IMG/VR virus record: IMGVR_UViG_3300032334_000967
Span: 1 to 38,090 of that record
Source of the DNA: a virus
Direction: 5' to 3' (one strand)
Length of the DNA stretch: 38,090 nt
The position numbers were made by a program, and so were the translations under genes. How positions within the stretch are numbered: position 1 is the stretch's first letter; the number at the start of each line of letters is the position of its first letter. Positions 15,795 through 37,707 of the stretch are shown here, one piece after another. The notes beneath the pieces are model-generated. The model searched no databases and was not told the DNA's origin. It was given only the letters and a program-made list of their open reading frames with translations.

Positions 15795-15805
15795 AATTTA
15801 CCTTT

Positions 15806-16216: not shown

Positions 16217-16224
16217 TTTAATTC

Positions 16225-19807: not shown

Positions 19808-20550
19808 TTAATGATTTCCCAAGTTCCATCATAATTTTCCACAAGAGCTGTGCAGCTTTCTACCCAGTCTCCATCATTCATATAGACAACACCACCTATC
19901 TGCTTTATGTCAGCTTTATGGATGTGCCCACAGATAATTCCATCTGCTTTTTTATTCTTGCAGTAAGATGCAATTAATTCTTCAAAGTCAGAAACATACG
20001 AAACTGCTTCTTTGGTCTTATTCTTTAGATATGCGCTAAGACTCCAATATGGCATACCGACTTTACGTCGGAACCAAGCAAGTACTTCATTTAGCGATAG
20101 AAGAAAATCATAAGCCACAGCACCAAGGTGATAGAGAAATTTTAACTTGCCTTGTAAAGCAGTGTCGAACATATCACCATGGCATACAATGTATTCTTTA
20201 CCATCTAGTCCATGATGACGATAGATGTTCTTAATCTCGATATTGCCAAAGGTCAAATCATAAATCATAGTTTCACGAAGTGCTTCATCATGATTGCCAG
20301 CAATGTATACAACATGAGTGCCGCGCTTTGCTGCAGTTAAAATTCGACGAATCACATTAGTGTGTGATTGATGCCAATAGAACTTTTGGCTCAGTCTCCA
20401 TCCATCAATGATGTCACCAACAAGATAGAGATTTTCTGCTGTGTTCTTCTTTAAGAAGTCACACAGTTCATCTGCTTTACAACCCTTTGTGCCAAGGTGT
20501 ACGTCTGAGATGAATATTGAACGATATGCGGTTATTATACTTTCTTCCAT
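19792..20550 (-). CDS. plcP: PlcP-like phospholipase C (calcineurin-like metallophosphoesterase, 252 aa)
   Basis: All phosphoesterase metal motifs are present: D16-x-H18 (SDVHLG), D46 (VGDIIDGW), N86-H87-D88 (GNHDE), H124 (CHGDMFD) and GHIH (208-211). The wider sequence (GTKGCKADELCDFL, WRLSQKFYWHQSH, PYWSLSAYLKNKTKEAV, DGDWVESCTALVE) resembles PlcP, the starvation-induced phospholipase C, more than LpxH. LpxH and PlcP share COG2908, so an LpxH role is the main alternative. Agt-like gene adjacent. Confidence 0.75.
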   Translation of the reverse strand: MEESIITAYRSIFISDVHLGTKGCKADELCDFLKKNTAENLYLVGDIIDGWRLSQKFYWHQSHTNVIRRILTAAKRGTHVVYIAGNHDEALRETMIYDLTFGNIEIKNIYRHHGLDGKEYIVCHGDMFDTALQGKLKFLYHLGAVAYDFLLSLNEVLAWFRRKVGMPYWSLSAYLKNKTKEAVSYVSDFEELIASYCKNKKADGIICGHIHKADIKQIGGVVYMNDGDWVESCTALVENYDGTWEIIKWQQK

Positions 20551-21566
20551 CCTACAAACCTCAATTTAGCTTCTAGACCTGTGAATGTATTTGCATCGAT
20601 CATAACTTTAATGTCTTCAACACCCATACCATTCTGAATCATCTCATTTATATCTTTCCCTGGAGCATCCTCAGGAAATAGACATACAGTATAATCGCCT
20701 TCGATTGCTCGAGAAATCTGTTTTACAATTTCTTTATTTCTCGGCTCATTGTCATAAACAAGAACACAATTAGAATCTTTCAAATACTCAGCAACGCTGC
20801 ATAGATTACTATCGCCACTGGCAATACTGTTAGGAACAAAGAACGAATCAAATTGCCCCTCAAGAACATAGACTGTTTTATTGGCTTGCAACCTGTGCAA
20901 GCCGAACAACTTTTTCTCATCGGTCAATTTCACCGTGCAATAGCGAATATTTGTCTTCCCCAATGCTCTCCCAGCAACGTTTGTTATATCACCTTTTTCA
21001 TTGGTGTAAAACAAAATTATTCTGGGATCGTTGGGAACGTCTTCTTTACCGTGTTCAGGGAAGGCTGCATCTAGAAAGTCTTTGAAAGAGTCATGATAGA
21101 ATATCTCTTTCCAATGTTTCTTAGGAATCCCCCTGCTCTCTATATATTTGACCGCAGGGTGTTGTGGGTCAAGTTTATCAATACTTTTTAGTTCTATAGT
21201 ATCGAGATTAATCTTATTTTTTAAGACTTCAGAAGGTTTTGGTCCTGCTAGATTAAATTTCGGCTTTTCATAGTTCGAATGACCGCTGTCCCCGTTAGTA
21301 TAGCGTTCAAGAACATACTCGCGATGTATATTGGTATCAACATATTTTAGAAACTTTGAGAAAGTGGTGCCTGTGTGGCAATTGTGACATAGAAAAAAAT
21401 AATCATTACCTTTACGGAATATATAGCCTCTGGCTTTTAGTTTATTCTTCTTGGAGTCGCCACAGATCGGGCATCGGAAATTGAATAAGTCTTGGTTCTT
21501 CTGAGCGAATCGCTCCAGTTGAGAAGAGACTAGTAATAGGAATTTCCTGTCAATGTAAACGGACAT
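20535..21566 (-). CDS. DNA primase, T4 gp61-like (343 aa)
   Basis: An N-terminal zinc ribbon (CPICGDSKKN at 34-43 and CHNCHTG around 60-66) is followed by a TOPRIM-type domain: VYVLEGQFDSFFV with the catalytic Glu, and CVLVYDNEPRNKEI with the acidic metal-binding residue. The size and order match T4 gp61-type primases. It is the first gene of the operon that continues through PlcP, Agt, ThyX and NrdJ. Confidence 0.88.
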   Translation of the reverse strand: MSVYIDRKFLLLVSSQLERFAQKNQDLFNFRCPICGDSKKNKLKARGYIFRKGNDYFFLCHNCHTGTTFSKFLKYVDTNIHREYVLERYTNGDSGHSNYEKPKFNLAGPKPSEVLKNKINLDTIELKSIDKLDPQHPAVKYIESRGIPKKHWKEIFYHDSFKDFLDAAFPEHGKEDVPNDPRIILFYTNEKGDITNVAGRALGKTNIRYCTVKLTDEKKLFGLHRLQANKTVYVLEGQFDSFFVPNSIASGDSNLCSVAEYLKDSNCVLVYDNEPRNKEIVKQISRAIEGDYTVCLFPEDAPGKDINEMIQNGMGVEDIKVMIDANTFTGLEAKLRFVGWKKV

Positions 21567-22029: not shown

Positions 22030-22614
22030 TTATCTCTCTATTAGACCACTGGATCCACCTTCATCAGATGGAGGAGATGTAGACTCAGATGGCGTTACAC
22101 CATTGTCTCTATTTATCTTACCAACAGCAATTTGCTGATCCTTTATCCAATTTTGCAACGCAGTTAACCTTTCTGCGTTGGCTGCACACGTTCCGTAGTT
22201 TTCGACGACGGTTGCGAGGGCTTCAGTGTCTTTAATTTCTGAGGAGGCTCCATCAGCTGCGGCGGTGGAGTTGGCATCACGACCCTCTGCTGCGGAATCA
22301 TGGACGTGCACCCAACCAGAAGACAACTCACAATTAGAAGGGACTTCTTTAACGATTTCAACATTTTTAGTTCTCCACTTGGTTACATAAACAATACGAT
22401 CCACGTACTCAGTTATAATTTTTTCATTAACAGTATTCTTTGCCTTTTCATAAGCTGCTTGCAATTCTTGGTATTGTGCGATTGATTGAGCCTTAAAAAG
22501 TTTTAACTTATCATTACCTACCTGCAAACCTTTCATATATCCGTAACCGAATATACCACAGATTACAAGAACTGCAATTAAAATCTTATATGGAAACGGA
22601 ATCATGTTTAACAT
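22030..22614 (-). CDS. Inner-membrane spanin (Rz-like, 194 aa)
   Basis: An N-terminal transmembrane segment (residues 9-27, YKILIAVLVICGIFGYGYM) is followed by a periplasmic coiled-coil domain (QYQELQAAYEKAKNTVNEKI). Another reading frame inside the gene encodes a lipoprotein (22164-22364), the standard Rz/Rz1 arrangement. Together they fuse the inner and outer membranes at the end of lysis. The C-terminus is Ser/Pro rich. Confidence 0.8.
   Translation of the reverse strand: MLNMIPFPYKILIAVLVICGIFGYGYMKGLQVGNDKLKLFKAQSIAQYQELQAAYEKAKNTVNEKIITEYVDRIVYVTKWRTKNVEIVKEVPSNCELSSGWVHVHDSAAEGRDANSTAAADGASSEIKDTEALATVVENYGTCAANAERLTALQNWIKDQQIAVGKINRDNGVTPSESTSPPSDEGGSSGLIER
22164..22364 (-). CDS. 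Embedded outer-membrane spanin lipoprotein (Rz1-like, 66 aa)
   Basis: The gene is wholly nested in a different frame of the i-spanin gene. MLKSLKKSLLIVSCLLVGC has an n-region, an h-region and a lipobox ending at C19. The mature 48 residues are rich in Pro, Gln and Lys (MPTPPPQLMEPPQ), as in Rz1. Unlike most shadow ORFs this one has a complete lipoprotein signal, so it is accepted as real. Confidence 0.85.
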   Translation of the reverse strand: MLKSLKKSLLIVSCLLVGCTSMIPQQRVVMPTPPPQLMEPPQKLKTLKPSQPSSKTTERVQPTQKG

Positions 22615-22967
22615 TAGTCGTGCTCATATCCATGGGTTTTGATTGTCATATATCTCTTTGGGTCTTCGTTAGAAGCAACCATATGATGGTACGCATGAAT
22701 CTTAGCAGGACCACGATAATGCGTCATATGATATGTCGTCAAATATGGATGAGTTCCAACTTCAATTTTATATGCACCAGGACCATGTTGAGTTACATCA
22801 AATTTAGATTCAGAACCCATTCTCATTGCCATGCGATGACTGTCAAAAGTGGGATGCTTGATAATAGCATTAAACTTGGCTTTGCCCAAACCCTCTAATG
22901 CTTCCTTACCAGTAGCATAGTGGGTTTCTTTGTGCTCTTCAGCCAAAAAATGCTTGAATGTTTTCAC
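22614..22967 (-). CDS. Probable internal capsid protein with T4-type CTS (117 aa)
   Basis: The GTG at 22967 is the chosen start: it overlaps the upstream stop (GTGA) and gives MKTFKHFLAE at the N-terminus, close to the T4 internal-protein leader MKTYQEFIAE, which gp21 cleaves after the Glu. An upstream ATG at 22982 would hide this. The mature part is His-rich (RGPAKIHAYHHM) with no recognised family. It would be packaged in the head and injected with DNA. Confidence 0.7.
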   Translation of the reverse strand: MKTFKHFLAEEHKETHYATGKEALEGLGKAKFNAIIKHPTFDSHRMAMRMGSESKFDVTQHGPGAYKIEVGTHPYLTTYHMTHYRGPAKIHAYHHMVASNEDPKRYMTIKTHGYEHD

Positions 22968-23374
22968 TCGTTGCAATTCCATCTTCTCAATGATGCGGCT
23001 TTGCGAGTTGGGCGACCCTTCTCATCCTTCATTGGTCCTGGCATTCCACTCATACGAGCACAGAATGACTTACGACGTTTTGCTGCTTTACTGCCAGGCT
23101 TTAGTTTGCTTGGTGGAGTTGTTACAGCCGTCTTTATACCGTAGTGCTTAGCACCCTTTGGAGTCAAACCAGCACCTGACTCTGTTGAGCGAAAATAACC
23201 TTTGTTATCTGCTCCACGTTCATTAATAGTTTCTTCTTTTACTGGAACGCAGTTAGGAACTTTTCTGCCATTTTTGTCTTTCATTCCAACGGCAGTGTAA
23301 CCTTTCCAGCAAGCATTCTTTAGATTGCCTGTTGGTTTCTTAACTTCTGATAAAAAGGACTTGAATGTTTTCAT
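22964..23374 (-). CDS. Probable internal capsid protein with T4-type CTS (136 aa)
   Basis: The first ten residues MKTFKSFLSE match the T4 internal-protein leader with a cleavage site after the Glu. Two motifs follow: ACWKGYTAVGMKDKNGRKVP then NCVPV, and KRRKSFCARMSGM with LRRWNC, the latter like phage DUF6321 proteins. The protein is strongly basic, which suits DNA-associated packaging. The activity in the cell is unknown. Confidence 0.75.
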   Translation of the reverse strand: MKTFKSFLSEVKKPTGNLKNACWKGYTAVGMKDKNGRKVPNCVPVKEETINERGADNKGYFRSTESGAGLTPKGAKHYGIKTAVTTPPSKLKPGSKAAKRRKSFCARMSGMPGPMKDEKGRPTRKAASLRRWNCNE

Positions 23375-23794
23375 TTATTCGCACCAAGACTTCTTCTTGT
23401 CGCCAAAGTATTCTCTGGCGAAACCATTTTTGACTAATTCAGCTCTCAGGCTCTTTCCGTCTACATTGACGTCACCTAGAACTCGACCGCCGAATTTGTC
23501 CCATTCTTTAATATCAACAGTTACGACTTTACCCTTTAAAAACTTCTTGGTAAATTCTGTGGCTGCTGCTCCACGCTCTGCCTCTGCTGGGCAGCTGGCT
23601 CTTCCACCTTTTTCTGGAGTATCTACTCCGTAGATCCGTATTTTTAATTTATCACCCAATTCTACTGGGAGCCACTTTACTTGCACTTCAACAGTATCAC
23701 CATCGACAGCACGTGTGACTTTCCAAGGATATGGATTGGCAACGGCTGTCGTGGCTACTGTTAGTAGCAATAATGCACTAACTAACTTTCTCAT
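23375..23794 (-). CDS. Secreted SNase-like (thermonuclease) nuclease (139 aa)
   Basis: A signal peptide (MRKLVSALLLLTVATTAVA, cleavage after about A19) is followed by the SNase domain: AVDGDTVEV (D31, D33), RIYGVDTPEKGG (R53, D58, E61) and DKFGGRVLG (R104), equivalent to the staphylococcal nuclease metal and catalytic residues. Exported to the periplasm, it may degrade competing DNA or help release progeny. ATGA overlap with the preceding 35-aa gene. Confidence 0.88.
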   Translation of the reverse strand: MRKLVSALLLLTVATTAVANPYPWKVTRAVDGDTVEVQVKWLPVELGDKLKIRIYGVDTPEKGGRASCPAEAERGAAATEFTKKFLKGKVVTVDIKEWDKFGGRVLGDVNVDGKSLRAELVKNGFAREYFGDKKKSWCE

Positions 23795-23898
23795 AGATAT
23801 TTGTCAACTTCATTTTCAATTTTTACAACCCATGCTGGTTTTGGTACATACCAACCAATTAGAGCGCCAACAACAATCCCAACAATTAATGTAAACAT
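23791..23898 (-). CDS. Tiny single-pass membrane protein (35 aa)
   Basis: Translated by eye: MFTLIVGIVVGALIGWYVPK, then PAWVVKIENEVDKYL. It fits precisely between the holin-like stop and the SNase start (ATGA overlap), which argues for a real gene. One transmembrane helix is followed by a short charged tail. Probably part of the lysis cassette; it could be a holin partner. Confidence 0.65.
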   Translation of the reverse strand: MFTLIVGIVVGALIGWYVPKPAWVVKIENEVDKYL

Positions 23899-23899
23899 T

Positions 23900-24133
23900 T
23901 TAATCCTTTTTCTTTGGTGCAAACTTCTCTGCGACAGTTGTTCCTAGACCAGCTAGGACAATAGTCATCATAGAACTATACATAAATTCTTCAATAGTCA
24001 ATTTCCAAAACAAATTGGCTACAAAAGCCATTGCAACTAACAACGTTGCGACGAATGTAATCACGCGCTTAGAAGAAATCGAGCCGTTTTCTCCGTCTGC
24101 AAGCATAGATTTAATGTTACTCGAGAATGACAT
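23900..24133 (-). CDS. Holin-like membrane protein (77 aa)
   Basis: Two predicted membrane helices (VITFVATLLVAMAFVANLFW, about 24-43, and YSSMMTIVLAGLGTTVAEKF) are joined by a short acidic turn. A polar N-terminus and a KKK tail follow the class II/III holin pattern. It lies in the cluster with the SNase, spanins and endolysin. It is my best holin candidate but has no diagnostic motif. Confidence 0.7.
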   Translation of the reverse strand: MSFSSNIKSMLADGENGSISSKRVITFVATLLVAMAFVANLFWKLTIEEFMYSSMMTIVLAGLGTTVAEKFAPKKKD

Positions 24134-24201
24134 TTTAATCTCCTATGCTAACTTTTACTTCTCTATTTAGGTTTCTGTGTCCTTACAGATTTTCAACAAA
24201 G

Positions 24202-24849
24202 TTAGGTAAATTCTATCAAGTTAAATGTGCCCCACAAATCCAACTTTGTTGCGTTGTCGACTCTCTTGGCCATCAATGTTAGCAAGGTTCCTGGTGTAGC
24301 CGTTCCCGTTCCGTTTAAATCTGTATGAACACTGTCTCCGCCCTGAGTTGTGCCAATAATAATACCAGAATGCACCATAGTGCACCCACTAAAACTGGTT
24401 ACTGTTGTGCCATTTTGACTGCTGTACCAGTCAGTATAAAATCTGTATTCTAACCTCGTGCCGACTGATGTAAAAGATGGCACTGCTGCTCCACCAAATG
24501 TCAAAGGACCCAACCACCATTCATACACAATAGTACTCGCAGTGGCGTTATTATTTCCTAATTCATAATCTTCTAACTCAGCGAGTTGCGAAGTACTAAT
24601 GTCAGCCTTACAACGTATGCTCATCATAGGGACCATAGCATCTGATTCAATTGTCCATCCTCTATGCACATTAATAGCATGATTATTAAAAGAATAGTGC
24701 AATCCAGGTTTATGATCTTGGTAGACTGTACCAGTAACTGGAAAGGGATTGTCAGCAGTGACAATATCGCCAGCATTTTGTATTTTTGTTGTTAATACAA
24801 TACTATCAGTAACATTAGATTTTGTGTTTGCATTAAATAGATAAGACAT
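24202..24849 (-). CDS. Putative virion structural protein (215 aa)
   Basis: The N-terminus MSYLFNANTKSNVTDSIVLT is followed by a beta-rich, Gly/Thr-rich body with few charged residues. It follows a 772-residue adhesin-like gene and precedes the lysis genes, so it is probably a fibre-associated or tip protein. No family recognised. Confidence 0.6.
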   Translation of the reverse strand: MSYLFNANTKSNVTDSIVLTTKIQNAGDIVTADNPFPVTGTVYQDHKPGLHYSFNNHAINVHRGWTIESDAMVPMMSIRCKADISTSQLAELEDYELGNNNATASTIVYEWWLGPLTFGGAAVPSFTSVGTRLEYRFYTDWYSSQNGTTVTSFSGCTMVHSGIIIGTTQGGDSVHTDLNGTGTATPGTLLTLMAKRVDNATKLDLWGTFNLIEFT

Positions 24850-24865
24850 TAGATACTTCCGTTAA

Positions 24866-27184
24866 TTAAGAAAAGAACTCTAGTCCTTTGCCTTGTGGTG
24901 GGGTGAACTGTATACCGTAGTTGTTGCCATTATTGACATTTCCGTTGGATGTTAGTGCCTTCCAAACGCTGGCTGTTCCCGCAAAAAAGTCTTTAATTGT
25001 GCAATAACTTAGGCTAACTGCAGTAGAATTAGACTTTGAAATAGTGTAGGTGCTACCAGAAGTCGCACTTTGTATGGTCAGTCGGAAACTGGAAGTGCCA
25101 GTACAATTAAATGTGCCAAATGTGAAGGTTTTTCCTGCTTCAAACGACATTGTTCGTGTTGATGTAACTGTATGCGTGAAGTTTTCAATGGTTCCGCCAT
25201 ATCTGTATGTGGTGTTGCCTGAAGTGCTAACAACAACATTATTAAAATTGTAAGTACCAAAATACAAACTAGTATCTAGCAAATTTGTTGCTGTTATTGT
25301 AGACGTTCCAGGATACAGTGTGCCGCTATAAGTAACAGGTGTATAAAAATAAAATCCTCGAGTGGTTACACTACTACTCTTCAGATACATCAAAGCAGCG
25401 CCAAAGACAGGAGAAAATAAGAAACCTGCAACATCTATAGTTTTATCATTACTGTCAAATGTTCCACGATATACATATATACCGCATGTGACTTCGCCAA
25501 CGGTTGTTGCAGTAAGATTATCGTTTAACACATAAGTTGCAGCGCCTTCACATGCATAGTATGCAGCATCACCATTAAATCCATTGGTTGTTATGTATTG
25601 TGTAACACCTGTTCCACCTTTAAGGTGAAATCCACCCTGGGCTCCAACTCCCGAAGTCATTAAAGATGTCATGGTGGCGCTGAGTGTCAAATCTCCATAT
25701 ATGTAAAGAGGATCAAGTGATACAAATGATATTCTACTCGAAGAACCAGTAAAATCTAAATTTTTAAAATGACCTATAATTTGCACAGTTGGCTGTGTAG
25801 TTTTGATGTAAAGACTTATTGCTTTGGATTCTGCCCCGCCTGCACCGTTGCCGTGATAGTAATTTCTCGTTCCCGTACCTACCCCACTAGTTTCTACCCT
25901 GGAAGTACCAGTGTAGGAAAAATTAGTAATAGTTGGACAATTCCAAAGTGTTGCTGTACCAATACCTACTCTTGACAGTACAATTTTTCCCGTAGTACCA
26001 AATGCGATTACTCTGGTCGCAGTATCATTTGCCTGTGTAAAAAGACCAGTAGTAAATGTAAAGTTGTTTAGATCCAAAGTACCGCTGTTCATGGTAAATG
26101 TCAGCGTATTGGTCATGGTAAATGCACCTTGCAGTTGGATACTTGAAGTGCTGCCAGACAGTGTGCATGCACTTGTTATAGTTTTTCCATTTGTTGTCAC
26201 GTTACTTACACCAGCAAAGAGTGTTGTATTACTGAGGGTGCTTACGGTCATTGTAGAACTGAAAGTTAAATTACCTTCAATTCTTCTATTAGATGTGCTG
26301 GAAAATGTTCCGCTAAATCCAGTAAAGTCAAGATTTTTAACACAAGCATAACTAGACGACACAGCATTTAATGTAACAGTATTTGTTCCTGCATTGACTT
26401 TTACGTTATAAATTGAAGAACCACTTGGCATCAGACCAGCCATTGCCTGAGACATGCTTATGGCTGTGGTTGATACTCCCGCAGTACTAGTAAATTCTAC
26501 ATTACAAGAACCTGAAGCATATGCATAAGTTCCAGTGTTACTATTTACACCATCAAAATCTTTCCATACAGTAGTGTCAGCACCTGTAACGATTATTTTA
26601 CCGGTAGTTCCAAATATTAATCTATATGAATTCGTTGGTTGGATTTGTGTTAGATCTACACTGTGTGTTGTTAAAGTTTTGCCGTTTAAGTTTAAATTTA
26701 CACCATTTAATAAATTAAATATTGCAGTAAAACCGCCGCTTGGAAAATTGGATGAAAAAGTTAAATTATCATTTAGTGTAAGTGTGTAACCACTATTATC
26801 ATCAGCTAATAGAAAATAACCCGAAGGTATAGAAACTCCATTAGTAGTGATAGAAGCGTTTTTTGTGAGAACATATGTTATAGAACTTGCGCCCGAAAAA
26901 GAAAAATTAGTTGCAGGTAATGTTACATTACCTGTAATAAAAAAGTCTCCCGCACTTAAAGTCATAGCACCATCTAACGAGCCAATGGTTAAGTCTTGAC
27001 ATTGTGGATCAACAGCAGTAACTGTAAAAGAACTGGTTCCCGTGTTTGAATTGGCGTCAAAAACAACATTGTCTGAAGATGTTGGAACACCTGCATTACC
27101 TGCACCACCAGAACTAGCTGCCCAATTTGTGGTTGTAGTACTATCCCATGTGCCGCTTCCACCTACCCAGTAATAAGTAGCCAT
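24866..27184 (-). CDS. Large beta-rich adhesin-like tail protein (772 aa)
   Basis: The sequence is dominated by Thr, Ser, Gly and Asn in short alternating strands, with repeated motifs such as the FGTTGKI element (three copies) and LDFTG/LDLNN elements, as in beta-helix adhesins. MATYYWVGGSGTWDSTTTTN begins it. It lies between collagen-like and structural genes, so a host-recognition tail fibre or spike is the likeliest role. No catalytic motif visible. Confidence 0.75.
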   Translation of the reverse strand: MATYYWVGGSGTWDSTTTTNWAASSGGAGNAGVPTSSDNVVFDANSNTGTSSFTVTAVDPQCQDLTIGSLDGAMTLSAGDFFITGNVTLPATNFSFSGASSITYVLTKNASITTNGVSIPSGYFLLADDNSGYTLTLNDNLTFSSNFPSGGFTAIFNLLNGVNLNLNGKTLTTHSVDLTQIQPTNSYRLIFGTTGKIIVTGADTTVWKDFDGVNSNTGTYAYASGSCNVEFTSTAGVSTTAISMSQAMAGLMPSGSSIYNVKVNAGTNTVTLNAVSSSYACVKNLDFTGFSGTFSSTSNRRIEGNLTFSSTMTVSTLSNTTLFAGVSNVTTNGKTITSACTLSGSTSSIQLQGAFTMTNTLTFTMNSGTLDLNNFTFTTGLFTQANDTATRVIAFGTTGKIVLSRVGIGTATLWNCPTITNFSYTGTSRVETSGVGTGTRNYYHGNGAGGAESKAISLYIKTTQPTVQIIGHFKNLDFTGSSSRISFVSLDPLYIYGDLTLSATMTSLMTSGVGAQGGFHLKGGTGVTQYITTNGFNGDAAYYACEGAATYVLNDNLTATTVGEVTCGIYVYRGTFDSNDKTIDVAGFLFSPVFGAALMYLKSSSVTTRGFYFYTPVTYSGTLYPGTSTITATNLLDTSLYFGTYNFNNVVVSTSGNTTYRYGGTIENFTHTVTSTRTMSFEAGKTFTFGTFNCTGTSSFRLTIQSATSGSTYTISKSNSTAVSLSYCTIKDFFAGTASVWKALTSNGNVNNGNNYGIQFTPPQGKGLEFFS

Positions 27185-27187
27185 CTA

Positions 27188-27373
27188 TTAGACCTCTGGT
27201 TCTTCTTCTGGCGGTGGTTCAGGATATTCTGTTGTCAATTCTATCACCCAATTATCAAACCTTGCCTGCATCATGGCTTCTAGTTCTTGCTCAGTATAGG
27301 TGTGGTCATCGGGAAGATTTAGTGCATCATCCAGTGTGTATGTACCATCAGTCTTAGTAAAACGTATTTGCAT
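27188..27373 (-). CDS. Small tail-fibre-associated protein (61 aa)
   Basis: The ATG at 27373 (MQIRFTKTDGTYTLDDALNL) starts 2 bp after the upstream stop; a longer in-frame start would overlap the upstream gene. Acidic helix TYTEQELEAMMQARFDNWVI, then a Pro/Glu-rich tail. Small proteins of this kind often follow phage fibre genes. Function unknown. Confidence 0.65.
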   Translation of the reverse strand: MQIRFTKTDGTYTLDDALNLPDDHTYTEQELEAMMQARFDNWVIELTTEYPEPPPEEEPEV

Positions 27374-27375
27374 GT

Positions 27376-27891
27376 TTAGAATCCGAAAACAGTAGCGATT
27401 AATTGCCACTTGGTGGCTGTAGAATTATAGATAAATCCGATATAATCATATTTATTGCTGCCACTTGAAACTGATGGGAGTGTTAAATCCGTTGACCCAG
27501 CAAATACAGAATTCCAGCTAAAGGTTTGTACATTAGTTGATTGCAGTCTTATCATCAACTTTTGACCATTAGCCAATGTTCCTGTCGGTGCATTTATTGT
27601 CAATGTTCCTACAGCTTGTGTATTTGTTTGAGTTGCTAATTCAGTAGTATCTGCGTTGATGGTGATTGATGTGGCATCAGAATAATTAATAACCTTCACT
27701 CCCCAAGGAATACCTTGAGATCCCTGAAATCCTTGATTTCCTTGCGCTCCAGTGACCCCCTGAGATCCCTGAGAACCAGTTGCACCTTGAGATCCCTGGG
27801 ATCCTTGGACGCCTTGAGCTCCAGTAACACCTTGAGCGCCTTGAGCACCACGCAAATTCCCAGAAAGTATTTGATCTAATGGAAATGACAT
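27376..27891 (-). CDS. Collagen-like tail fibre protein (171 aa)
   Basis: Residues about 13-61 are Gly-x-y repeats (GAQGAQGVTGAQGVQGSQGS), a collagen-like triple-helix segment. The C-terminal 110 residues form a beta-rich domain with ITINADTTELA and LTINAPTGTLANGQKL, resembling the fibre-tip repeats of the neighbouring 404-aa protein. It should trimerise. Probably a tail fibre. Confidence 0.8.
   Translation of the reverse strand: MSFPLDQILSGNLRGAQGAQGVTGAQGVQGSQGSQGATGSQGSQGVTGAQGNQGFQGSQGIPWGVKVINYSDATSITINADTTELATQTNTQAVGTLTINAPTGTLANGQKLMIRLQSTNVQTFSWNSVFAGSTDLTLPSVSSGSNKYDYIGFIYNSTATKWQLIATVFGF
27705..27858 (-). repeat. Collagen-like Gly-x-y coding repeat
   Basis: Tandem 9-bp-type units encoding Gly-x-Gln and similar triplets (e.g. 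CCTTGAGATCCCTG on the plus strand) run for about 150 bp. Low-complexity tandem coding repeats like these can change copy number by slippage or recombination. Confidence 0.8.
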
Positions 27892-27892
27892 A

Positions 27893-29107
27893 TTAAATTA
27901 TTCTCCAACCATTTCGATATAACAATTGCACACCACCATTATCTATTTGTAGAATAAATCCACCAACATCATTGTCTACTGTTCCAGAAACAGTTATGGG
28001 GTTTATTGATGCATTTCCTGATTCATCTTTAATCGAAATTATTCTTCCTGTATTTGCTGTTGCAGGTAAAGTTATACTGGTTGGTCCTGCATAATTAACG
28101 CCAATATACCAATCAGAAGTAGTCACTGTATACGTTGCTGTTGTCACAGAAGTAGTATTTACTTCACCATATCCAGCTGGTCCTCTAGGACCAAGAGTTG
28201 CAGCAACCTGCCATGTTTCTATTCCAGGATTTCCGTTATACACAAGCTTAATAATAATTCCCTTATTATTGCTTGTCATATCGTCAGAAATGCCTTCAAT
28301 GGTAGAACCATTTCTAGCAATTGTTATAGGATTTACAGACCAATCAGAACCATCCATAATGGTTACATCTTGCCCAGTAACTGGAGATGCAGGAAGTGTG
28401 ATTGTTATTGCACCAGCAGAAGTATCTCCAATAATTCTATCGCCAGTTGATGCTGTATAGTTTGCTGTTTTTAAAATCCAGGGATTTATATTACCAACAT
28501 CATCAAGTCTAAATGCTCCACGAGTCCAACGAAGAACTCTTCCTTCAGCATATGTCGAAGAATCGAAGTCATCGGTAGCGCCGATTCTGACCACACCAGT
28601 ACCACCACCACCCATTGAGAGAGTTCCCAATCGAGCCATGATATTTGCGATTTGTTTCTTTAGAGCATTTAGTTCGCTGTTTTGCAGCTTAGAACCTAAA
28701 GTTTCTTCTTTATCTTCCTTATCAGTAAACTTAGTATTTGATATTGCGTTTACTGTTTGTTTGATTAGGTCTTCTCTATCAACACCACGAATTTGATCTA
28801 CTCCAGTTTGAGCAACATCTGGAGATGGAGGTATAATTGCTTCTACAACTGGTTCTGATACTTCTTCAACAACAGGTTCTGGAACTATTTCTACGATCGG
28901 TTCTGGTACTTCTTCCACAACAGGTAGTTCTTCAACCACCTCATTTTTCTTGTCAATAATTGTTGGGACTTCAGGCTCAACAAAGCCAAACATCATCTTA
29001 GATAATCTTTCTTCTTTTTCTATAGACTCGAGCAATGCTGGATCAATAGGCTGACCCAACATCTTGGCGAACTTGACAAGCATTTTCTTTTCATTCAAGC
29101 TTTTCAT
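27893..29107 (-). CDS. Fibre/structural protein with Pro-Glu hinge (404 aa)
   Basis: A helical N-terminus (KMLVKFAKMLGQP) is followed by a Pro/Glu/Val-rich hinge (VPEPIVEIVPEPVVEEVSEP, around 68-90), a coiled coil (LNALKKQIANIMARLGTL), and then at least two repeated beta modules of the type ITLPAS/ITLPAT...NPITI. The flexible hinge and repeat ends suggest a head- or tail-attached fibre. Exact virion position unknown. Confidence 0.75.
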   Translation of the reverse strand: MKSLNEKKMLVKFAKMLGQPIDPALLESIEKEERLSKMMFGFVEPEVPTIIDKKNEVVEELPVVEEVPEPIVEIVPEPVVEEVSEPVVEAIIPPSPDVAQTGVDQIRGVDREDLIKQTVNAISNTKFTDKEDKEETLGSKLQNSELNALKKQIANIMARLGTLSMGGGGTGVVRIGATDDFDSSTYAEGRVLRWTRGAFRLDDVGNINPWILKTANYTASTGDRIIGDTSAGAITITLPASPVTGQDVTIMDGSDWSVNPITIARNGSTIEGISDDMTSNNKGIIIKLVYNGNPGIETWQVAATLGPRGPAGYGEVNTTSVTTATYTVTTSDWYIGVNYAGPTSITLPATANTGRIISIKDESGNASINPITVSGTVDNDVGGFILQIDNGGVQLLYRNGWRII

Positions 29108-29126
29108 AGTTTTTATGAGTTGGAGA

Positions 29127-29150
29127 AACTGGCATCTGCAGATGCCAGTT
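29127..29150. repeat. Perfect 24-bp palindrome (12-bp arms)
   Basis: AACTGGCATCTG is followed directly by its reverse complement. It lies between the endolysin stop and the fibre-protein start. As RNA it would form a 10-bp hairpin with a TGCA loop. T-rich sequence follows on the plus side, not the minus side, so a terminator of minus transcription is uncertain; it could be an RNase-processing or protein-binding site. Confidence 0.85.
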
Positions 29151-29174
29151 CTTTTCCTCTTACACCCCTGCGAG

Positions 29175-29861
29175 TTATTTACCTGATGATAGAATCTTCA
29201 ACGCCTTTTCATAGTGCGCTTTTCTTTCTTCAAGACCGATTGTGCCACCATTAATCTTCTTAGTCATACCAAGAATATCACCCTTATCTGCAAAGGCATT
29301 TAATCCATTTGCGTTCCAGAACCAAAGAGCAGATTTAAATGCTCCTTCTAGAGTAATTAGGTAATCTGGATTAGCAATTAGGTCTACACCAATTGACTTT
29401 CCACACTTGGTGTAGTTATCTTTACCTGTTAGCTGAATGAATCCGCGACCACGGAACTTCCATCCATCGCCTGAGGCAACCGGACCATTTCCCATTCTGT
29501 CTGCGTATACGTTGTTAGCAATTAGCTCAGGCTTGCGCTGAATCTGATTTGCTAGAGCATTTGGCTTGATTGGCTTAATTGCATTTCCCTGCGCATCTTT
29601 CTCAGCAAAACGCTTTGGCCAAGTTCCTGCTAGACCTGCAGCACCATAGTTTAAGTTCTCTACGACAGCGCAGAAGTTACCGGATTCATGACCACACTGA
29701 GAAATAAATGCCGATTGTCTGTTACGATTTGCAAAATTAGTTTCATCAGTTAGTGATGCTAGGGCAACATTGAGTTGCTCAACTAGAGCATCTAAACCTA
29801 GTTTTGTATTCTTAGCGTTAGGTAAAATTTCAAGTAGTTGTTCTTTCGTTAAGGATGTCAT
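29175..29861 (-). CDS. GH19 endolysin (chitinase-class lysozyme, 228 aa)
   Basis: FISQCGHESGNF places the catalytic Glu at residue 59, and GDGWKFRGRGFIQLTGKDNY is the GH19 substrate-binding motif. There is no signal peptide, so a holin is needed for release. It cleaves peptidoglycan at the end of infection. Start overlaps the upstream 52-aa gene. Confidence 0.9.
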   Translation of the reverse strand: MTSLTKEQLLEILPNAKNTKLGLDALVEQLNVALASLTDETNFANRNRQSAFISQCGHESGNFCAVVENLNYGAAGLAGTWPKRFAEKDAQGNAIKPIKPNALANQIQRKPELIANNVYADRMGNGPVASGDGWKFRGRGFIQLTGKDNYTKCGKSIGVDLIANPDYLITLEGAFKSALWFWNANGLNAFADKGDILGMTKKINGGTIGLEERKAHYEKALKILSSGK

Positions 29862-30016
29862 AGTTTTGGCTTCCTTCTTCTTAGCATTTTTGTCATGTTT
29901 TTCTTATATCGATTTACTTGCAGAGCATAAGCATCTGTTGGGTTGGTTAGAGAAGGAACTGATCCACCACCAACACTCATTGTGGCATCTTCTGCTACTT
30001 TAGATTTCTGAGACAT
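29858..30016 (-). CDS. Small basic protein (52 aa)
   Basis: Translated by eye: MSQKSKVAEDATMSVGGGSV at the start and a basic end (RYKKNMTKMLRRRKPKL). Its stop overlaps the endolysin ATG and its start lies inside the end of the upstream gene, which supports it as real. Function unknown. Confidence 0.6.
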   Translation of the reverse strand: MSQKSKVAEDATMSVGGGSVPSLTNPTDAYALQVNRYKKNMTKMLRRRKPKL

Positions 30017-30384
30017 TCTATTGCACCTGTATCTAGTTGAATATCATTCGTTATTATGTTCTTACCTTTTATCCCATAAACAATCTTAGGAAGAAAGTTT
30101 AAGAACATTAAGAAGGGTTTTAATATTTTATAATCTTCTTCATCTAATTTGAAGAAGAGAATTCTAGTTGCTGCCTCAACGCCAAACACATTGTAAAGAA
30201 TTACAAGATGGTTTAGTATGAGTCGTTCTTTAAGAACACCACTTGTATCATACTTGGTCAGCAATCTTTTTATGTAGAGGATTCTGTTTATGTCTTCTTC
30301 AAATTCACTCATTACTGCATTTGGTTTATCATAAACTTTCGCAGCATACAGCATAAAATTGTTATCATTTAAGTCATCAAACAT
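29995..30384 (-). CDS. Conserved T4-like phage protein (129 aa)
   Basis: MFDDLNDNNFMLYAAKVYDK followed by LKERLILNHLVILYNVFG and ILKPFLMFLNFLP resembles a small helical protein common in T4-like marine phage genomes near structural genes. Its function is unknown. No motif indicates catalysis. Confidence 0.7.
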   Translation of the reverse strand: MFDDLNDNNFMLYAAKVYDKPNAVMSEFEEDINRILYIKRLLTKYDTSGVLKERLILNHLVILYNVFGVEAATRILFFKLDEEDYKILKPFLMFLNFLPKIVYGIKGKNIITNDIQLDTGAIECLRNLK

Positions 30385-30387
30385 AGA

Positions 30388-30756
30388 TTAATCGTCTGCT
30401 GAGCGACGAACTTGTCTCAAGTATGGTGACACTAATTGTCTTTGTTCGACTTCATCAGTTTCAATATCCATATTCAAAACATCATCTAAACCATCACTAT
30501 CAACGAATTGAGCATAGGCATCATAGTGCCCCTTATCATCTTGATCAATCATAATGCAAAGATACAAATCATCGTCTGCTTTGTATACGATCTGCTCATC
30601 AAAGCCTGTTGGGTGCAGCTCGGGAAGAATAACGCCGAAACGTTCTAGAATTCCACGAACTGTTTGCACCACAAGGTATGCAGTAGAGAATTTCCCATTA
30701 ACGAGTTCATCGAAATGAGAATTGATTACATCTACTGCATCATCTTGATCAATCAT
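30388..30756 (-). CDS. Conserved hypothetical acidic protein (122 aa)
   Basis: MIDQDDAVDVINSHFDELVN begins a helical N-terminal half. The centre is acidic (DQDDKGHYDAYAQFVDSDG, VLNMDIETDEVEQ). It overlaps the 445-aa internal-protein gene by 8 bp. Probably co-translated with it. Function unknown. Confidence 0.65.
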   Translation of the reverse strand: MIDQDDAVDVINSHFDELVNGKFSTAYLVVQTVRGILERFGVILPELHPTGFDEQIVYKADDDLYLCIMIDQDDKGHYDAYAQFVDSDGLDDVLNMDIETDEVEQRQLVSPYLRQVRRSADD

Positions 30757-32086
30757 TTGTCGATTCCTTATAGATTTTCACATGGTCGGCGACTTGATTG
30801 GTATGGGTTCTTCTTGTTCCAGTACCCTTTCCCTTGATGCCGCCACGGAAAGTCTTGAATGATTGAGATTGCTTTGCTGCGATTGCATAGTTTTCTTTAG
30901 TCATTTCGCGATTAGCTGTATATTCACTTCTTGGTTCTGGCTTTCTACCAGCATCTGAGAAAGGTGATTTATATTGATTAGACTTTCTTTTAGCAGCAGG
31001 ACCTAAATTTTGCTGAGTTCTTGCTTTCGTTTTTGCTCTAAAATCTGCAATCTGATCTTCAGCTGACTTAGACTTAGGTGTAAAAGCTCTCTTTATGGCA
31101 TCGACTAAACCTTCGTTTAGCTCACCATCCATATAGTTAGCTGCGGTTACGATATAGTCCTCAGCAAGAGTAATCTTGCTTTGAACCCACTCAGGAAGAT
31201 TTGTATCTGGCTTGAGCATGTCATGGAGCTTTTGAGCATTTGCGATTACGCTCTTAAGCTGCGACATTGCCATATCACCTTCATAGTCGTACTCACCTTT
31301 ATTTTTGACTTCTTCGCTGATGCCGTGTTTTTTCTTTAGTGCTGCAAGTGCTTTTTCATATTCATTATTAGTCTTTGGTTTAGTTGGTTCTGGTTCTTTG
31401 GGGTGATCATCCCTTTCATAACGATTAACTACATCACCGCAGTTTGTGCATTTTAAATGAGCACCATAAATATCTTTTTCTACATATTTTCCTTTTTTAC
31501 ATTCTTGACATTTCGTATAAGATCTATCGTCATTATACGCTTCTTCTTTTATATTTTTATGAGGAACATGAACATCAAGACCTTCATCGCCGTGCCATGC
31601 TTGTGGACGAACTATTGCATGAGTTGGTGTTACTTGCACAACTTTACCACCATCAAATGACATTGGTTTGCGAGTGTGTCTGGCTGTTCCAGCAACAGGC
31701 TCATTAAACTTCACACGTTGGCCAACCTTAACATTGCTTTCTTTAACAGACTTCATGCTAGCAAATGGATTGCTGTTATCTTCAGAATCTTTGTCTAATT
31801 GCTCTTTTGCCTTACGCTTTTCTTCTTCTTTCTTTGCTTTTCTTGCACGCTCATGTTCTACATTAGCGTTAGCAGCACTTAGCGCATAAGGAATCATTTC
31901 AGAAATTGCAGATTCTAGTAACTTAACAGAATGAACTGTTGCGCCATACTTGTTGTCAAGCGAGTCTGCCTTTTTATGCGCAGACTTTGAGCTTGTGTGA
32001 TAACTCACAACATTCCCACCACGAGTTACTGCGTGAGTGTGTTCAGGCTTACGAGTTGCTTCGTCGATGAATGTCTTAAATTTCAT
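30749..32086 (-). CDS. Large basic protein with T4-type CTS and zinc ribbon (445 aa)
   Basis: The N-terminus MKFKTFIDEATRK fits a T4-like internal-protein leader with a cleavage site after FIDE. KOW/SH3-like (VKVGQRVKFNEPVAG) and zinc-ribbon (CQECKKGKYVEKD...CTNCGDV) segments follow. Further LxE/IxE sites (ISEM, GISEEV, ELNEGL) could be cleaved. The protein is Lys-rich and probably packaged in the capsid; this is inference. Confidence 0.7.
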   Translation of the reverse strand: MKFKTFIDEATRKPEHTHAVTRGGNVVSYHTSSKSAHKKADSLDNKYGATVHSVKLLESAISEMIPYALSAANANVEHERARKAKKEEEKRKAKEQLDKDSEDNSNPFASMKSVKESNVKVGQRVKFNEPVAGTARHTRKPMSFDGGKVVQVTPTHAIVRPQAWHGDEGLDVHVPHKNIKEEAYNDDRSYTKCQECKKGKYVEKDIYGAHLKCTNCGDVVNRYERDDHPKEPEPTKPKTNNEYEKALAALKKKHGISEEVKNKGEYDYEGDMAMSQLKSVIANAQKLHDMLKPDTNLPEWVQSKITLAEDYIVTAANYMDGELNEGLVDAIKRAFTPKSKSAEDQIADFRAKTKARTQQNLGPAAKRKSNQYKSPFSDAGRKPEPRSEYTANREMTKENYAIAAKQSQSFKTFRGGIKGKGTGTRRTHTNQVADHVKIYKESTND

Positions 32087-33888
32087 TTCTCATCCTTATG
32101 GCTCTTAGCGCCCTTTCTCTTCATCCACCATGCTAGTGCAAATGGATTGTCGATCTCAGAATGCTTCTTCATTGCCTTAACAGTTCCTTCCCATCCAGGA
32201 GGTGCCATTTCAGCGATTGGTGTCTTGTGCACTGAAGCTCTTTTACCAGAGATACTTAGCTTGTTTGCTACGTTGTGTGCATGACCTGCAGAACCAAATG
32301 TCTTCCACTTCTTTCCATCGATATGAACATCATGTGGAGTTTGGTCGTGGTGCGCTGGTCCTGATGGAGTCTCATGAGCTAGTTCGTGTTCTAATTCACG
32401 GCTCTTGAATGCGCGCTTTGAGTCTTGGAATGGATCGTGTGTCTTGTCATAAGCACTTCCGAAAGCTTTGCGTCCTTTATATCCTTCTTCAACTGTTTTG
32501 CTAGCAGCTCTTTTTGCTCTTCTAGCAGCTTCTTCTTTTTCACGAGTAGCTTTCATTCTAGCTGTGGCTTCATCGCTAGACATACCTTTACTAATGCGCT
32601 TTGCCTGTCTTTGAACTTCACTATGGCGCCACTCATCAAGCTCGACTTCTTCTCTTACTCTATGCGCGGCGAGAACTTCTTTTTCTGCTTCTCTTCTAGA
32701 ATCAAAACCTACGGAATTGAATTTAGTTTTGTGGTGCTTTGCATACCACTTACCATTACCTGGTGACGCCTCATCATCAATTCCAGTTTCGCCAATTTCT
32801 TTTCCGTTATGGAAAACTGGCTTGGATTTTAGATTAGCCTCATCAAGCTCGACTTCTTCTTTTCTAGTCATAAGTTTGATTTTATCAATAGGGCGTCTTC
32901 CTGCAGGAGCAGGTTTTTGAGCATTGCTGGCATCATCAATTCTTTTTTGTAGTCCAGGATTTAGTGCTTGCGCAGAAGTTGGCTCATAAACTCTACGATA
33001 GTTGAGGTCTTCACCCATGCTTCTAAGATGATCTTTGACATCATTTTTTGTATAGTCCGGGCTAATCTTAGAAATACGACGAGCGTACTTATTAGTATTT
33101 GATTTAGCACGGTTTGTCTTGCTTAGAGCATCTTTGATGCGTCTTGCTGTTGGAGTTAATGCAGCTTGAGCAGCTTCTAGGCTGTGGCGTGAATTGACCT
33201 CATCAATCTGCTCGACTTCTTCGTTCGTATTTACAGATTTTACACCTTTGTTATGGTACATTTTTTCTGTTGGCGCACCTTTGCTTAGCAATTTTTTGCT
33301 TCTATCTTTTAGACGTCTTTGCACAGTAGGATTATCCGACCCAACAGTAACATCACGACCTTTATCAAACGCATTAGCATTCTTAGTTGCAGTTGCTAGG
33401 TTCTTTTTCATCACGCTGCCAGGTTTTTTAAACCCAGTTCCGTTGAAAACTTGAGTCCATCTTTTGTGAAGATAATTATCTAATGTACCAATACTTACTT
33501 CATCAACCTGCTCGACTTCTTCTTTCTTCACACCACGCATTCCCTGTTTGGCAAGATTTTTAGCAACATTACCAATTTTAATCTTATTGCCAAACTTGTC
33601 TTGATGTGGCTTTGCTGGTTTTGCATTATCAAACGGAACTGATGATTGAGCATGATGCATATAATCACTCATTCCACCATCATCTTCATCTTCAGCCTTA
33701 CGCTTCATCGCACCTTCATTAAGCTTCGTGACTTTTTGAATAGGAACAATGCTTATGAGCGGTGCATAAACACCACAGACAGGTGCCTTGATGTGCACAT
33801 GTCCTTCCTTGATATTCATTACAGTTCCGGTTACTCTGGCTGAGCCTCTTATGCCTACAACCTTATCTCCGATCTTTATTTCGCTCAT
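32083..33888 (-). CDS. Putative cleavable internal polyprotein (601 aa)
   Basis: The N-terminus (MSEIKIGDKVVGIRGSARVT) is a KOW/SH3-like domain. Four repeated sites, EEVEQVDE (to 130), EEVEQIDE (to 230), EEVELDE (to 350) and EEVELDE (to 419), plus KLNE (58), divide the protein into basic modules of 69-182 residues. They match the (I/L/V)-x-E consensus of T4 gp21-type prohead proteases. Together with the 545-residue neighbour it looks like a multi-protein precursor. Confidence 0.7.
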   Translation of the reverse strand: MSEIKIGDKVVGIRGSARVTGTVMNIKEGHVHIKAPVCGVYAPLISIVPIQKVTKLNEGAMKRKAEDEDDGGMSDYMHHAQSSVPFDNAKPAKPHQDKFGNKIKIGNVAKNLAKQGMRGVKKEEVEQVDEVSIGTLDNYLHKRWTQVFNGTGFKKPGSVMKKNLATATKNANAFDKGRDVTVGSDNPTVQRRLKDRSKKLLSKGAPTEKMYHNKGVKSVNTNEEVEQIDEVNSRHSLEAAQAALTPTARRIKDALSKTNRAKSNTNKYARRISKISPDYTKNDVKDHLRSMGEDLNYRRVYEPTSAQALNPGLQKRIDDASNAQKPAPAGRRPIDKIKLMTRKEEVELDEANLKSKPVFHNGKEIGETGIDDEASPGNGKWYAKHHKTKFNSVGFDSRREAEKEVLAAHRVREEVELDEWRHSEVQRQAKRISKGMSSDEATARMKATREKEEAARRAKRAASKTVEEGYKGRKAFGSAYDKTHDPFQDSKRAFKSRELEHELAHETPSGPAHHDQTPHDVHIDGKKWKTFGSAGHAHNVANKLSISGKRASVHKTPIAEMAPPGWEGTVKAMKKHSEIDNPFALAWWMKRKGAKSHKDEK

Positions 33889-33889
33889 T

Positions 33890-35527
33890 TCAGTTTCCCT
33901 TCTTGTGCTTGGCGCGTAGTGCTTTAAAGTCTTGCGCTGTTAGTTTACCATATGGCTTTGCAACGTCTAGTGCTGTTTGATTGCCCTTTAGCTCTTCATC
34001 AACAGCAATACTGTGCAATCCACCTGTCTTAATTCTACCCTGAGACTTAACAGCATTCACGGCACCACCAGCAGTGCTTGTGTTGTGACCAGTGATACTT
34101 GTACGACCACCAGAACCAACATTCATACCGCTACGGCTTCCACCCTTGGCATAGTATTCTTTCTGACGCTCTATATTCTGGCGACGCACTTTCTGTGCTG
34201 GAGTTTCATCTTTTGGCTCAGCCTTTGGAGCTGCTTTCTTCTTTGCACCAAAGCTTTGAGCTAGAGCTGCCATTGGCGATTCTTTTGCCTTTGGTGCTGC
34301 TCTACCTGCTCTCTTTCCTACTGCTGCAGAAGTTGGGGCTGGTTCAGCCTTTGGAGTTTCCTTTCCTGCCTTCTTATCACGGGCTTCTAGACGAGCTCTT
34401 GCAGCTGCACTTAGTTTCGATCGATCAATAGCCTTACCGAATCTTCCTTCATTAATCTGCTCAGCATCTTCTTTTAGAGCCTTAACAGGTTGCCACAAAG
34501 GATTTGAAGGTACGAAAGGAGTTTCCCAACCACCTGTGCCGTGATTTTTTGTTGCGGCTGTTGCTAGTTTTTTAGCATGTTCGTCATCTTTTGCGTGTAC
34601 ATGAACTTCAAGAGTTCTTGATGGACCTCTCCAACCTGCTGCAGCTGTAGGATGCTGTGTCATGTAAACAGCATGGGTTGCAGGCTTGTCGCCATGAGCT
34701 TTAACAACGGCTTTAACTTCGTCAATTTGCTCGACCTCTTCTGCAACGCCATGCAATTTCTTAAACGCACTTAATGCTTTTCCGTATTTCTTACCCTTTG
34801 CGTGATATTTTCCTAAAGAAGGATCAGCCTTAATATCTCTTTTTAGAGTTGGATTTGGAGTCTTGTTGTTTTCAGCACCAGCATCAAACGCACGAAGACG
34901 GTCACTAGCACGATGTATTCCTTTGTATTTTTTAGAGTCATAACCCCATTCTTTATTGTACCTAGCCTGTGCAGTTTTTGTTTTTTTACTATTAGCACCA
35001 TTATAAACTTGACTTCTTTCTACTTTAGAATCAGCGTCATGACGCTGATCTACTCTTTGTTTTATATAACTTTTTATAGTGCTTTGCTTTAGTTCATCAA
35101 TCTGCTCGGCTTCTTCTTTGGCTAATCTTGATAATGCTCTTTCTACACCCTTATCGCGAGATTTATCTCTACGCACTTCTTTCTTACCACCTATTGCATT
35201 ACTAATTTCTCCGTGGGTTGCCTTTCTGCGCTCTGTTCCTGCAATATAGCCATAAGCTTGTCCAGCTTTTGACACTCTTTTGCCTTGGTCCCAATATGCC
35301 TTTCCGACATAACTACTTAGAGTCTTCTTCGAAAGTTCATCAAGCTGTTCTGCATCTTCTTTCACAAAGTGATTAGGAACATTAAGATTCATAACTCTCT
35401 GAACCATATCGCTTTCGATAGGCTTTGTATCAGCAAAGTCTCTGACCTTGGTTGGCTGCTCTTGCATAATCTTATTTGCAATTTCAGCAATTGACTTGTT
35501 TGTTTTGTCGCTTAGAGTGTTTGACAT
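33890..35527 (-). CDS. Putative cleavable internal polyprotein (545 aa)
   Basis: Repeated sites EDAEQLDE (to 64), EEAEQIDE (to 145), EEVEQIDE (to 270) and EDAEQINE (to 360) separate basic modules. The modules that follow begin alike (LSKKTLSSYVGK, LKQSTIKSYIKQ). The N-terminus MSNTLSDKTNKSIAEIANKI resembles that of the adjacent Dps. Lys-rich, no membrane segment. Likely prohead-core or injected proteins after cleavage. Confidence 0.7.
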   Translation of the reverse strand: MSNTLSDKTNKSIAEIANKIMQEQPTKVRDFADTKPIESDMVQRVMNLNVPNHFVKEDAEQLDELSKKTLSSYVGKAYWDQGKRVSKAGQAYGYIAGTERRKATHGEISNAIGGKKEVRRDKSRDKGVERALSRLAKEEAEQIDELKQSTIKSYIKQRVDQRHDADSKVERSQVYNGANSKKTKTAQARYNKEWGYDSKKYKGIHRASDRLRAFDAGAENNKTPNPTLKRDIKADPSLGKYHAKGKKYGKALSAFKKLHGVAEEVEQIDEVKAVVKAHGDKPATHAVYMTQHPTAAAGWRGPSRTLEVHVHAKDDEHAKKLATAATKNHGTGGWETPFVPSNPLWQPVKALKEDAEQINEGRFGKAIDRSKLSAAARARLEARDKKAGKETPKAEPAPTSAAVGKRAGRAAPKAKESPMAALAQSFGAKKKAAPKAEPKDETPAQKVRRQNIERQKEYYAKGGSRSGMNVGSGGRTSITGHNTSTAGGAVNAVKSQGRIKTGGLHSIAVDEELKGNQTALDVAKPYGKLTAQDFKALRAKHKKGN

Positions 35528-35528
35528 C

Positions 35529-36059
35529 TTAGATACCCTTTCCTGTAGAAGTAAGTTTCCAACTTAGTTTTTTGTGTTTATCGACTAAATCTTGTAGAAA
35601 ATTTGAGAGACCTGGCTCATTTGCAGATTCAGCTAATCTGTAACCAGCAATTAAACCTTGAATAATTTTTTCATTATCTGATAGTAGATCGTTTACCATT
35701 TGCTGTGGTGCAACGACACCTGCAGCTTCTGTTAGAGAAGTCATTGATAGTAATTGTGAGAGCGCAGTTGGAGCATACGCACCAAGAGCACGAATCTGTT
35801 CAGCAATAGGATCTAAATTACCAAAAACTTCTTCGTAAATCTCTGAGAAGAAATCATGGTACTGTGGGAAATTAGAACCCTCAACATTCCAATGGAATGT
35901 GTGAGCCTTAAAGTAGAACACATAACCATCAGCAAGAATCTTCTTCATCTGAGTGACGAGTTCCATGCTAACATTCTCTTTTAAGTTTGTTAGACCCATC
36001 ACCTTTCTTACTGCTTCAGCCACATTCTTTGTGCGCTTGTCGCTTAGTGAATAACTCAT
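35529..36059 (-). CDS. dps: Dps-family ferritin-like DNA-protection protein (176 aa)
   Basis: FHWNVEGSNFPQYHDFF and LDPIAEQIRALG are the Dps signature. H56, H68, D83 and E87 have the same spacing (12, 15, 4) as E. coli Dps ferroxidase ligands H51, H63, D78, E82; the position of D67 is Ser72. The usual basic tail is replaced by a 29-residue extension similar to the next polyprotein (LSDKxxKxxAExxxKxM), ending at LKE, a possible protease site. Confidence 0.88.
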   Translation of the reverse strand: MSYSLSDKRTKNVAEAVRKVMGLTNLKENVSMELVTQMKKILADGYVFYFKAHTFHWNVEGSNFPQYHDFFSEIYEEVFGNLDPIAEQIRALGAYAPTALSQLLSMTSLTEAAGVVAPQQMVNDLLSDNEKIIQGLIAGYRLAESANEPGLSNFLQDLVDKHKKLSWKLTSTGKGI

Positions 36060-37699: not shown

Positions 37700-37707
37700 T
37701 ATTTATC
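37700..37707 (-). promoter_or_regulatory. Possible late promoter box (GATAAATA)
   Basis: GATAAATA reads on the minus strand about 35 bases upstream of the 36061-37665 gene and differs from TATAAATA at the first base. It overlaps the end of the upstream gene. It may start the internal-protein gene group. Confidence 0.4.

Follow-up and report, generated by a model that had tools for sequence, protein, structure and literature searches.

Probable T4-type capsid-targeting leaders and candidate modular head cargo in a T4-like phage related to cyanophages

Do phage genes that share little beyond their first ten codons encode proteins destined for the inside of the head? The question is raised by positions 1-38,090 of the IMG/VR record IMGVR_UViG_3300032334_000967 (a 38 kb fragment, hereafter the window), where three genes on the minus strand, 22614-22967, 22964-23374 and 30749-32086, begin with VKTFKHFLAE (22938-22967, GTG start), MKTFKSFLSE (23345-23374) and MKFKTFIDE (32060-32086, kept in relative L141), respectively. 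Judged from its gp61-type primase (20535-21566) and from cyanophages being its best GenBank matches the phage is T4-like; near-identical phages were not found by megablast of the window against GenBank. Read directly from the T4 record, ipII and ipIII start with MKTYQEFIAEA and ipI with MKTFKEF. In T4 the first ten residues are enough for targeting, residues 4 and 7 serving targeting and residues 8 and 10 processing, and gp21 cleaves after L/I-x-E (PMC9026906). These positions as well as the L/I-x-E are conserved in all three window leaders, so that cleavage is predicted after E10, E10 and E9. The first-pass annotation had matched all three to MKTYQEFIAE, and the aromatic-x-x-aromatic-[LI]-x-E register is indeed retained in each, but MKFKTFIDE lacks the T at position 3 of the T4 leader and is thereby shorter by one residue.

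The leader of 22614-22967 depends on reading the GTG at 22967 as the start codon. This choice, made already in the first-pass annotation, is correct: three orthologues (L059, L060, and L180) carry an ATG at exactly this codon, followed by the leaders MKTFKEFMTE, MKSFSEFLSE, and MKTFKEFILE, respectively, and the GTG overlaps the stop codon of the upstream gene (GTGA). The alternative upstream ATG at 22982 adds five residues (MELQR) that the three orthologues lack.

The motif is short and degenerate, and the likeness to T4 might be a coincidence of short amphipathic N-termini. A regular expression set a priori from T4, M.{0,3}[FY]..[FYLI][ILVM].E (up to three residues after M), matched twice at the first starts of the window, where 0.04 matches are expected with each N-terminus shuffled, and matched the third leader at its GTG. 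Scored with a leader profile the three rank first to third among the N-termini of the window (20.4 bits for MKTFKSFLSE, 19.0 for VKTFKHFLAE, and 17.7 for MKFKTFIDE) with the next gene at 7.2, a margin that is somewhat favoured because the profile was built from 91 leaders including these three. The same pattern was sought in 2,894 unique genes from 198 sources (2.2 Mb), comprising the window, IMG/VR relatives, Methylophilales phage Melnitz, and part of T4. A leader stood at the first start of 82 genes, whereas 4.05 are expected when the N-termini are shuffled and 8.9 when the frequency at internal methionines is applied. Between orthologues the leader is kept while other residues vary, and it is associated with detection in virions (see below), which together with the counts makes coincidence exceedingly improbable. 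The mature parts behind the leader belong to more than a dozen unrelated families, e.g., DUF6321 proteins and cytidylyltransferase-like proteins, and such sharing of one leader by many otherwise unrelated proteins is what marks a sorting signal.

A prohead protease of the gp21 family (S77) was found in the relatives G001, G003, S-SM1, S-SZBM1, S-CREM2, and Melnitz. In G001, a near-complete relative of 178,732 bp, it is encoded at 115031-115675 and retains the catalytic-type motifs GELGHP and GVSSRG (GELNHP and GVSSRG in T4). At 76472-80228 the same genome has five leader genes in a row, within a block syntenic with 30-38 kb of the window. The major capsid proteins of G001, S-CREM2, S-SM1, and Melnitz, compared by eye at their N-termini, all carry an L-x-E site close to where T4 has FLTE/A (a slash marks the site of cleavage), the sites in the relatives being FLSE/A, LLTE/A, ILTE/T, and ILAE/A, with FLSE/A in Melnitz. 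Directly adjoining the G001 protease gene is that of a 92-aa, very basic, core-type protein starting with MKTFKEFLLTE. This gene brings up the alternative that leaders do target the prohead core, but that the products are assembly or scaffold parts, cut and for the most part expelled in the manner of T4 gp67, gp68, and gp22; proteins with several internal sites (see below) could be such cores as well. On the other hand the leader-bearing families vary among relatives, as core genes do not, and leader-bearing enzymes stay in purified virions of S-CREM2. A scaffold role for the products is therefore regarded as unlikely.

The virion evidence comes from published proteomics of cyanophages. The five highest leader scores among the 216 called genes of S-CREM2, those of open reading frames (ORFs) 154, 14, 6, 136, and 13, all belong to proteins detected in virions (PMC10665884 Table 3). 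They include a cytidylyltransferase (ORF154, MKNFSSFLTE), an APH-like kinase (VKRFDAFLTE), and an S-adenosylmethionine (SAM) hydrolase (MKDFDSFLEE), the remaining two being hypothetical proteins with MQTFSMFFSE and MKDLHSFLTE. As 50 of the 216 genes were detected, all five would by our own arithmetic be among them by chance about 6 times in 10,000. Leader and detection were also associated at a score threshold of 8 (Fisher p=0.003) and with the strict regular expression (3/3, p=0.012). When all virion-detected genes were compared with all others the leader score did not differ significantly (p=0.39), as one would expect with leaderless tail or shell parts making up most of the virion proteins; the information lies solely at the top of the ranking. 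In two further cyanophages the cytidylyltransferase family has been reported from virions: the S-SM1 protein (PMC3037559) starts with MKKFSAFLNE/A and S-SZBM1_140 (PMC9146016) with MRFRQFIIE/A.

Other observations weigh against this reading of the leaders. The window itself, being a fragment of 38 kb, yielded no prohead protease. The top leader protein of S-SZBM1 (MKSFKSFLSE, 105 aa) was not among the proteins detected in virions, of which there were just 30, and the authors of the S-CREM2 study allow either packaging or co-purification for such proteins (PMC10665884). With regard to the latter the presence of a leader favours packaging. Taken with the orthologues, the synteny with protease-bearing G001, and the leader-tagged virion proteins of cyanophages, packaging of the leader proteins, as the first-pass annotation had predicted, is well supported; cleavage after the leader glutamate in the window phage is likely, as judged from the consensus, and injection of the mature parts into the next host is inferred by analogy with T4. 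It is thus highly probable, in our estimate, that the leaders are capsid-targeting sequences of head cargo that is cut by a gp21-family protease and ejected with the genome as basic mature parts, and that the locus belongs to a more extensive head-cargo system. In such a system the leaders would dock the proteins onto the prohead core during head assembly, as shown for T4; the protease would then cut after the glutamate of [LI]-x-E, and the basic mature proteins would remain packed with the DNA until they are ejected with it.

What, then, would be delivered? The mature parts are all basic, with isoelectric points (pI) of 8.8 for the product of 22614-22967, 10.4 for 22964-23374, and 9.3 for 30749-32086. 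The first (22614-22937, minus strand), referred to as module D, has 107 aa and an alpha+beta AlphaFold2 model with a predicted local distance difference test score (pLDDT) of 78.5, in which the leader is of low confidence and the model is confident from about residue 11. In 22964-23374 the leader is followed by module A (23219-23344, minus strand; GYTAVG..GRKVPNCVP), which ends in an internal site, EETINE (E52), and by module B (22964-23218, minus strand; 84 aa, pI 10.9), a DUF6321 domain (PF19846) delimited from Pfam and from an alignment of 27 relatives. Residues 67-132 match DUF6321 with E=1.9e-16 and 60.9 bits against a gathering cut-off of 28.5, and in the AlphaFold2 model the linker residues 46-52 fall below a pLDDT of 50, with more confident parts beyond. 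The third (30749-32059, minus strand, from translation and charge) is a multi-module protein of 436 aa with a Cys-rich stretch; at about residues 190-225 this stretch resembles a zinc ribbon (CxxC...CxxC). It contains module C (31112-31312, minus strand; EYDYEGDM...NYM) between HGISE and GELNE sites.

One of the three mature parts is thus a known, widespread phage domain, DUF6321, which was also the sole Pfam match among them. No match to the mature parts was obtained in a sequence search of PDB, in a fold search at E<=0.001 of PDB (models of 22614-22967 and 22964-23374) or BFVD (22614-22967), or among the defence and anti-defence systems of PADLOC. Nor did they match the T4 IPI, IPII or IPIII families in Pfam, PHROGs or PDB, and the earlier statement that none of them resembles a T4 internal protein holds. 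The T4 proteins Ip1-3 all inhibit type IV restriction enzymes (PMC12373910). By analogy the likeliest role for the mature proteins may be an early interaction with the host, e.g., inhibition of defence, and a defence-related role for modules D and C is a first guess; for the strongly basic DUF6321 module the first guess would be DNA binding.

The modules also occur apart from the leader, a feature that together with the internal second site of 22964-23374 had escaped the first-pass annotation. Module D recurs in a 909-aa protein of G001 between NEAINE and VNHIDE, and the C-terminus of the window copy coincides with the boundary at which the G001 module meets its IDE site. Module A is found combined with module C in L059 and L180. 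Module C itself occurs 49 times, with varied neighbours and usually with GE[LM][NS]E at its end. Directly before the DUF6321 module an [LIVM]xE ends in 13 of 15 proteins (many of them related, so that there are perhaps six independent contexts), and it is either the end of a leader (MIGFKEFITE/RGED, MDTFKQYISE/RGAD) or an internal site (EETINE/RGAD). The gene set contains 192 acidic [ILV]xE motifs, a count that falls to 7 when the proteins are reversed and to 8 when they are shuffled, and 52 genes have at least two of them, with a median spacing of 85 residues. From these sequence patterns the cargo looks modular, with the same modules occurring either one at a time after a leader or in series, separated by internal [LIV]-x-E sites. 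In S-CREM2 a wider regular expression for internal sites picked out five non-core genes, four of which are virion-detected (p=0.001), a result that is suggestive only as the expression was chosen post hoc.

It is conceivable that such head cargo consists of polyproteins, in which interchangeable small modules are separated by prohead-protease sites ([ED][ED]xE.[ILV]xE) and cut within the prohead into many separately acting peptides for injection, a classical capsid-targeting leader serving to deliver single modules as well. Cleavage at the internal sites would here be read from their position and conservation, and when homology boundaries were compared blind with [LIVM]xE sites the outcome was mixed, which counts against this reading: the signal was clear for the protein of 22964-23374 (0.52 vs 0.18) and absent for that of 32083-33888 (0.26 vs 0.25). 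For this reason polyproteins are treated here as possible and not as established; we put the idea at slightly short of an even chance. Alternatively the EEVEQIDE-type motifs may stay uncut and serve as binding sites or as flexible acidic linkers, which would leave the long proteins multidomain in the manner of polyvalent proteins (PMC5512222). The mixed boundary test fits this view, basic domains may plausibly be joined by acidic linkers with no cleavage at all, and in the polyvalent proteins an injected class with several domains is already known. However, the final three residues of the motif fit the protease consensus, leader end and internal site share their position before DUF6321, and module D ends in the window where its G001 counterpart meets the IDE site. 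Uncut linkers are a tentative alternative, with perhaps one chance in three.

Polyvalent proteins (Iyer et al. 2017, PMC5512222) are similarly multidomain and are expected to be carried into the host along with the DNA, and their described processing is by zincin-like metallopeptidases (PMC5512222). The window modules differ in being small, for the most part lacking known enzymatic domains, and set apart by sites of the prohead-protease type; polyvalent proteins combine several disparate enzymatic domains in a single chain, whereas no enzymatic domain at all was found in 30749-32086, 32083-33888, or 33890-35527. The ejection proteins of phiKZ, SPN3US, and 201phi2-1 are another parallel, many head proteins of these phages having propeptides that are cut after Glu by a gp21-family protease, with more than one site in a single propeptide. 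We know of no common short leader on these proteins. The SPN3US cleavage motif, A-x-E, is unlike the window sites (PMC10052503).

The genes next to 30749-32086, all on the minus strand, extend the locus. Two encode multi-module proteins: 32083-33888 has four internal EEVE(Q)[IV]DE or EEVELDE sites and no capsid-targeting leader, and 33890-35527 has four internal E[ED][VA]EQ[IL][DN]E sites and starts with an N-terminus of another kind. They are followed by a Dps/ferritin-like protein (35529-36059; Ferritin, PF00210, 3.7e-21, domain from residue 37) with an N-terminal extension of about 30 residues ending in NLKE. The latter two proteins have a common N-terminus, MS..LSDK..K.[IV]AE...KxM, and the multi-module form with this type of N-terminus recurs in G001, L009, and L141; it might be a targeting sequence of a second type. 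The next gene, 36061-37665, encodes a leaderless protein with cytidylyltransferase-like and P-loop kinase-like parts, for which no upstream in-frame leader was found. It belongs to the same family as the virion-associated cytidylyltransferase or NMNAT-like proteins T4-GC190, S-SZBM1_140, and S-CREM2 ORF154. The cyanophage members are leader-bearing and virion-detected, and the leader is present on the family in S-SM1 (148256-149419), S-SZBM1, S-CREM2, and Melnitz (14914-16866). The leader tag thus seems to have been gained and lost between orthologues.

Several smaller observations concern the leader and its surroundings. Another virion-detected S-CREM2 protein, annotated as Cas9/Csn1 (L227 7704-10313), has LRFASFMAE/A after a short N-terminal extension. 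By eye a block A..LGL..G.G.Y.D...G.I seems to come after the leader in this protein, in the S-CREM2 kinase (L227 10579-12846), and in the S-SM1 cytidylyltransferase (L225 48256-49419); it may be a further element for targeting or docking that they have in common, and a search of the 198-source gene set with one regular expression did not find it. In the window the leaderless 30388-30756 (minus strand) is apparently, by eye, kin to a family that carries MQTFNQFLTE in 14 other loci, and 29858-30016, also leaderless, has an apparent relative in L162 with MKKFKEFINE. A HELTH-type putative metallopeptidase family (phrog_16532; window 10663-11193 and L040 19194-19715) is leaderless in the window, and a G001 protein with a weak match to this family carries MKTFKQYLNE. 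A DUF6267 protein is cut by the window end, leaving its C-terminal part at 37703-38032; its relatives have a K.DG motif as in nucleotidyltransferases or ligases, and some have leader-like N-termini. Finally, 22030-22614 is an inner-spanin-like gene with an embedded outer-spanin-like lipoprotein frame (22164-22364), i.e., lysis genes.

The kind of system is already known, being the capsid targeting of T4; what is new is its setting, its breadth, and the modular cargo. As with IPI, IPII, and IPIII of T4 (Straboviridae) there is the decapeptide register, one leader on unrelated bodies, basic mature proteins, and, in the relatives, a gp21-type protease. Unlike in T4 the mature parts have neither sequence nor fold relation to the internal proteins, the cargo modules are joined by internal protease-type sites, and the setting is that of cyanophage-type T4 relatives. 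Literature searches on the leader in cyanophages and on DUF6321, with subscription journals outside their coverage, returned no paper that connects the leader with the virion proteins of such relatives. With the leader as a rule, head cargo can be predicted from sequence across a very large group of T4-like phages, the cyanophages and their freshwater and marine relatives, most of whose genes have no function in annotation. The leader also offers a simple reason for the SAM hydrolase, the kinase, and the cytidylyltransferase in virion proteomes, and possibly for the Cas9-annotated protein with its offset leader; earlier papers report the virion presence of cyanophage cytidylyltransferases and leave it without explanation. 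If the internal cleavage is true, with the prohead protease splitting a multi-site protein into several mature peptides, it would amount to a polyprotein strategy within the head of a tailed phage and to dozens of candidate injected anti-defence proteins.

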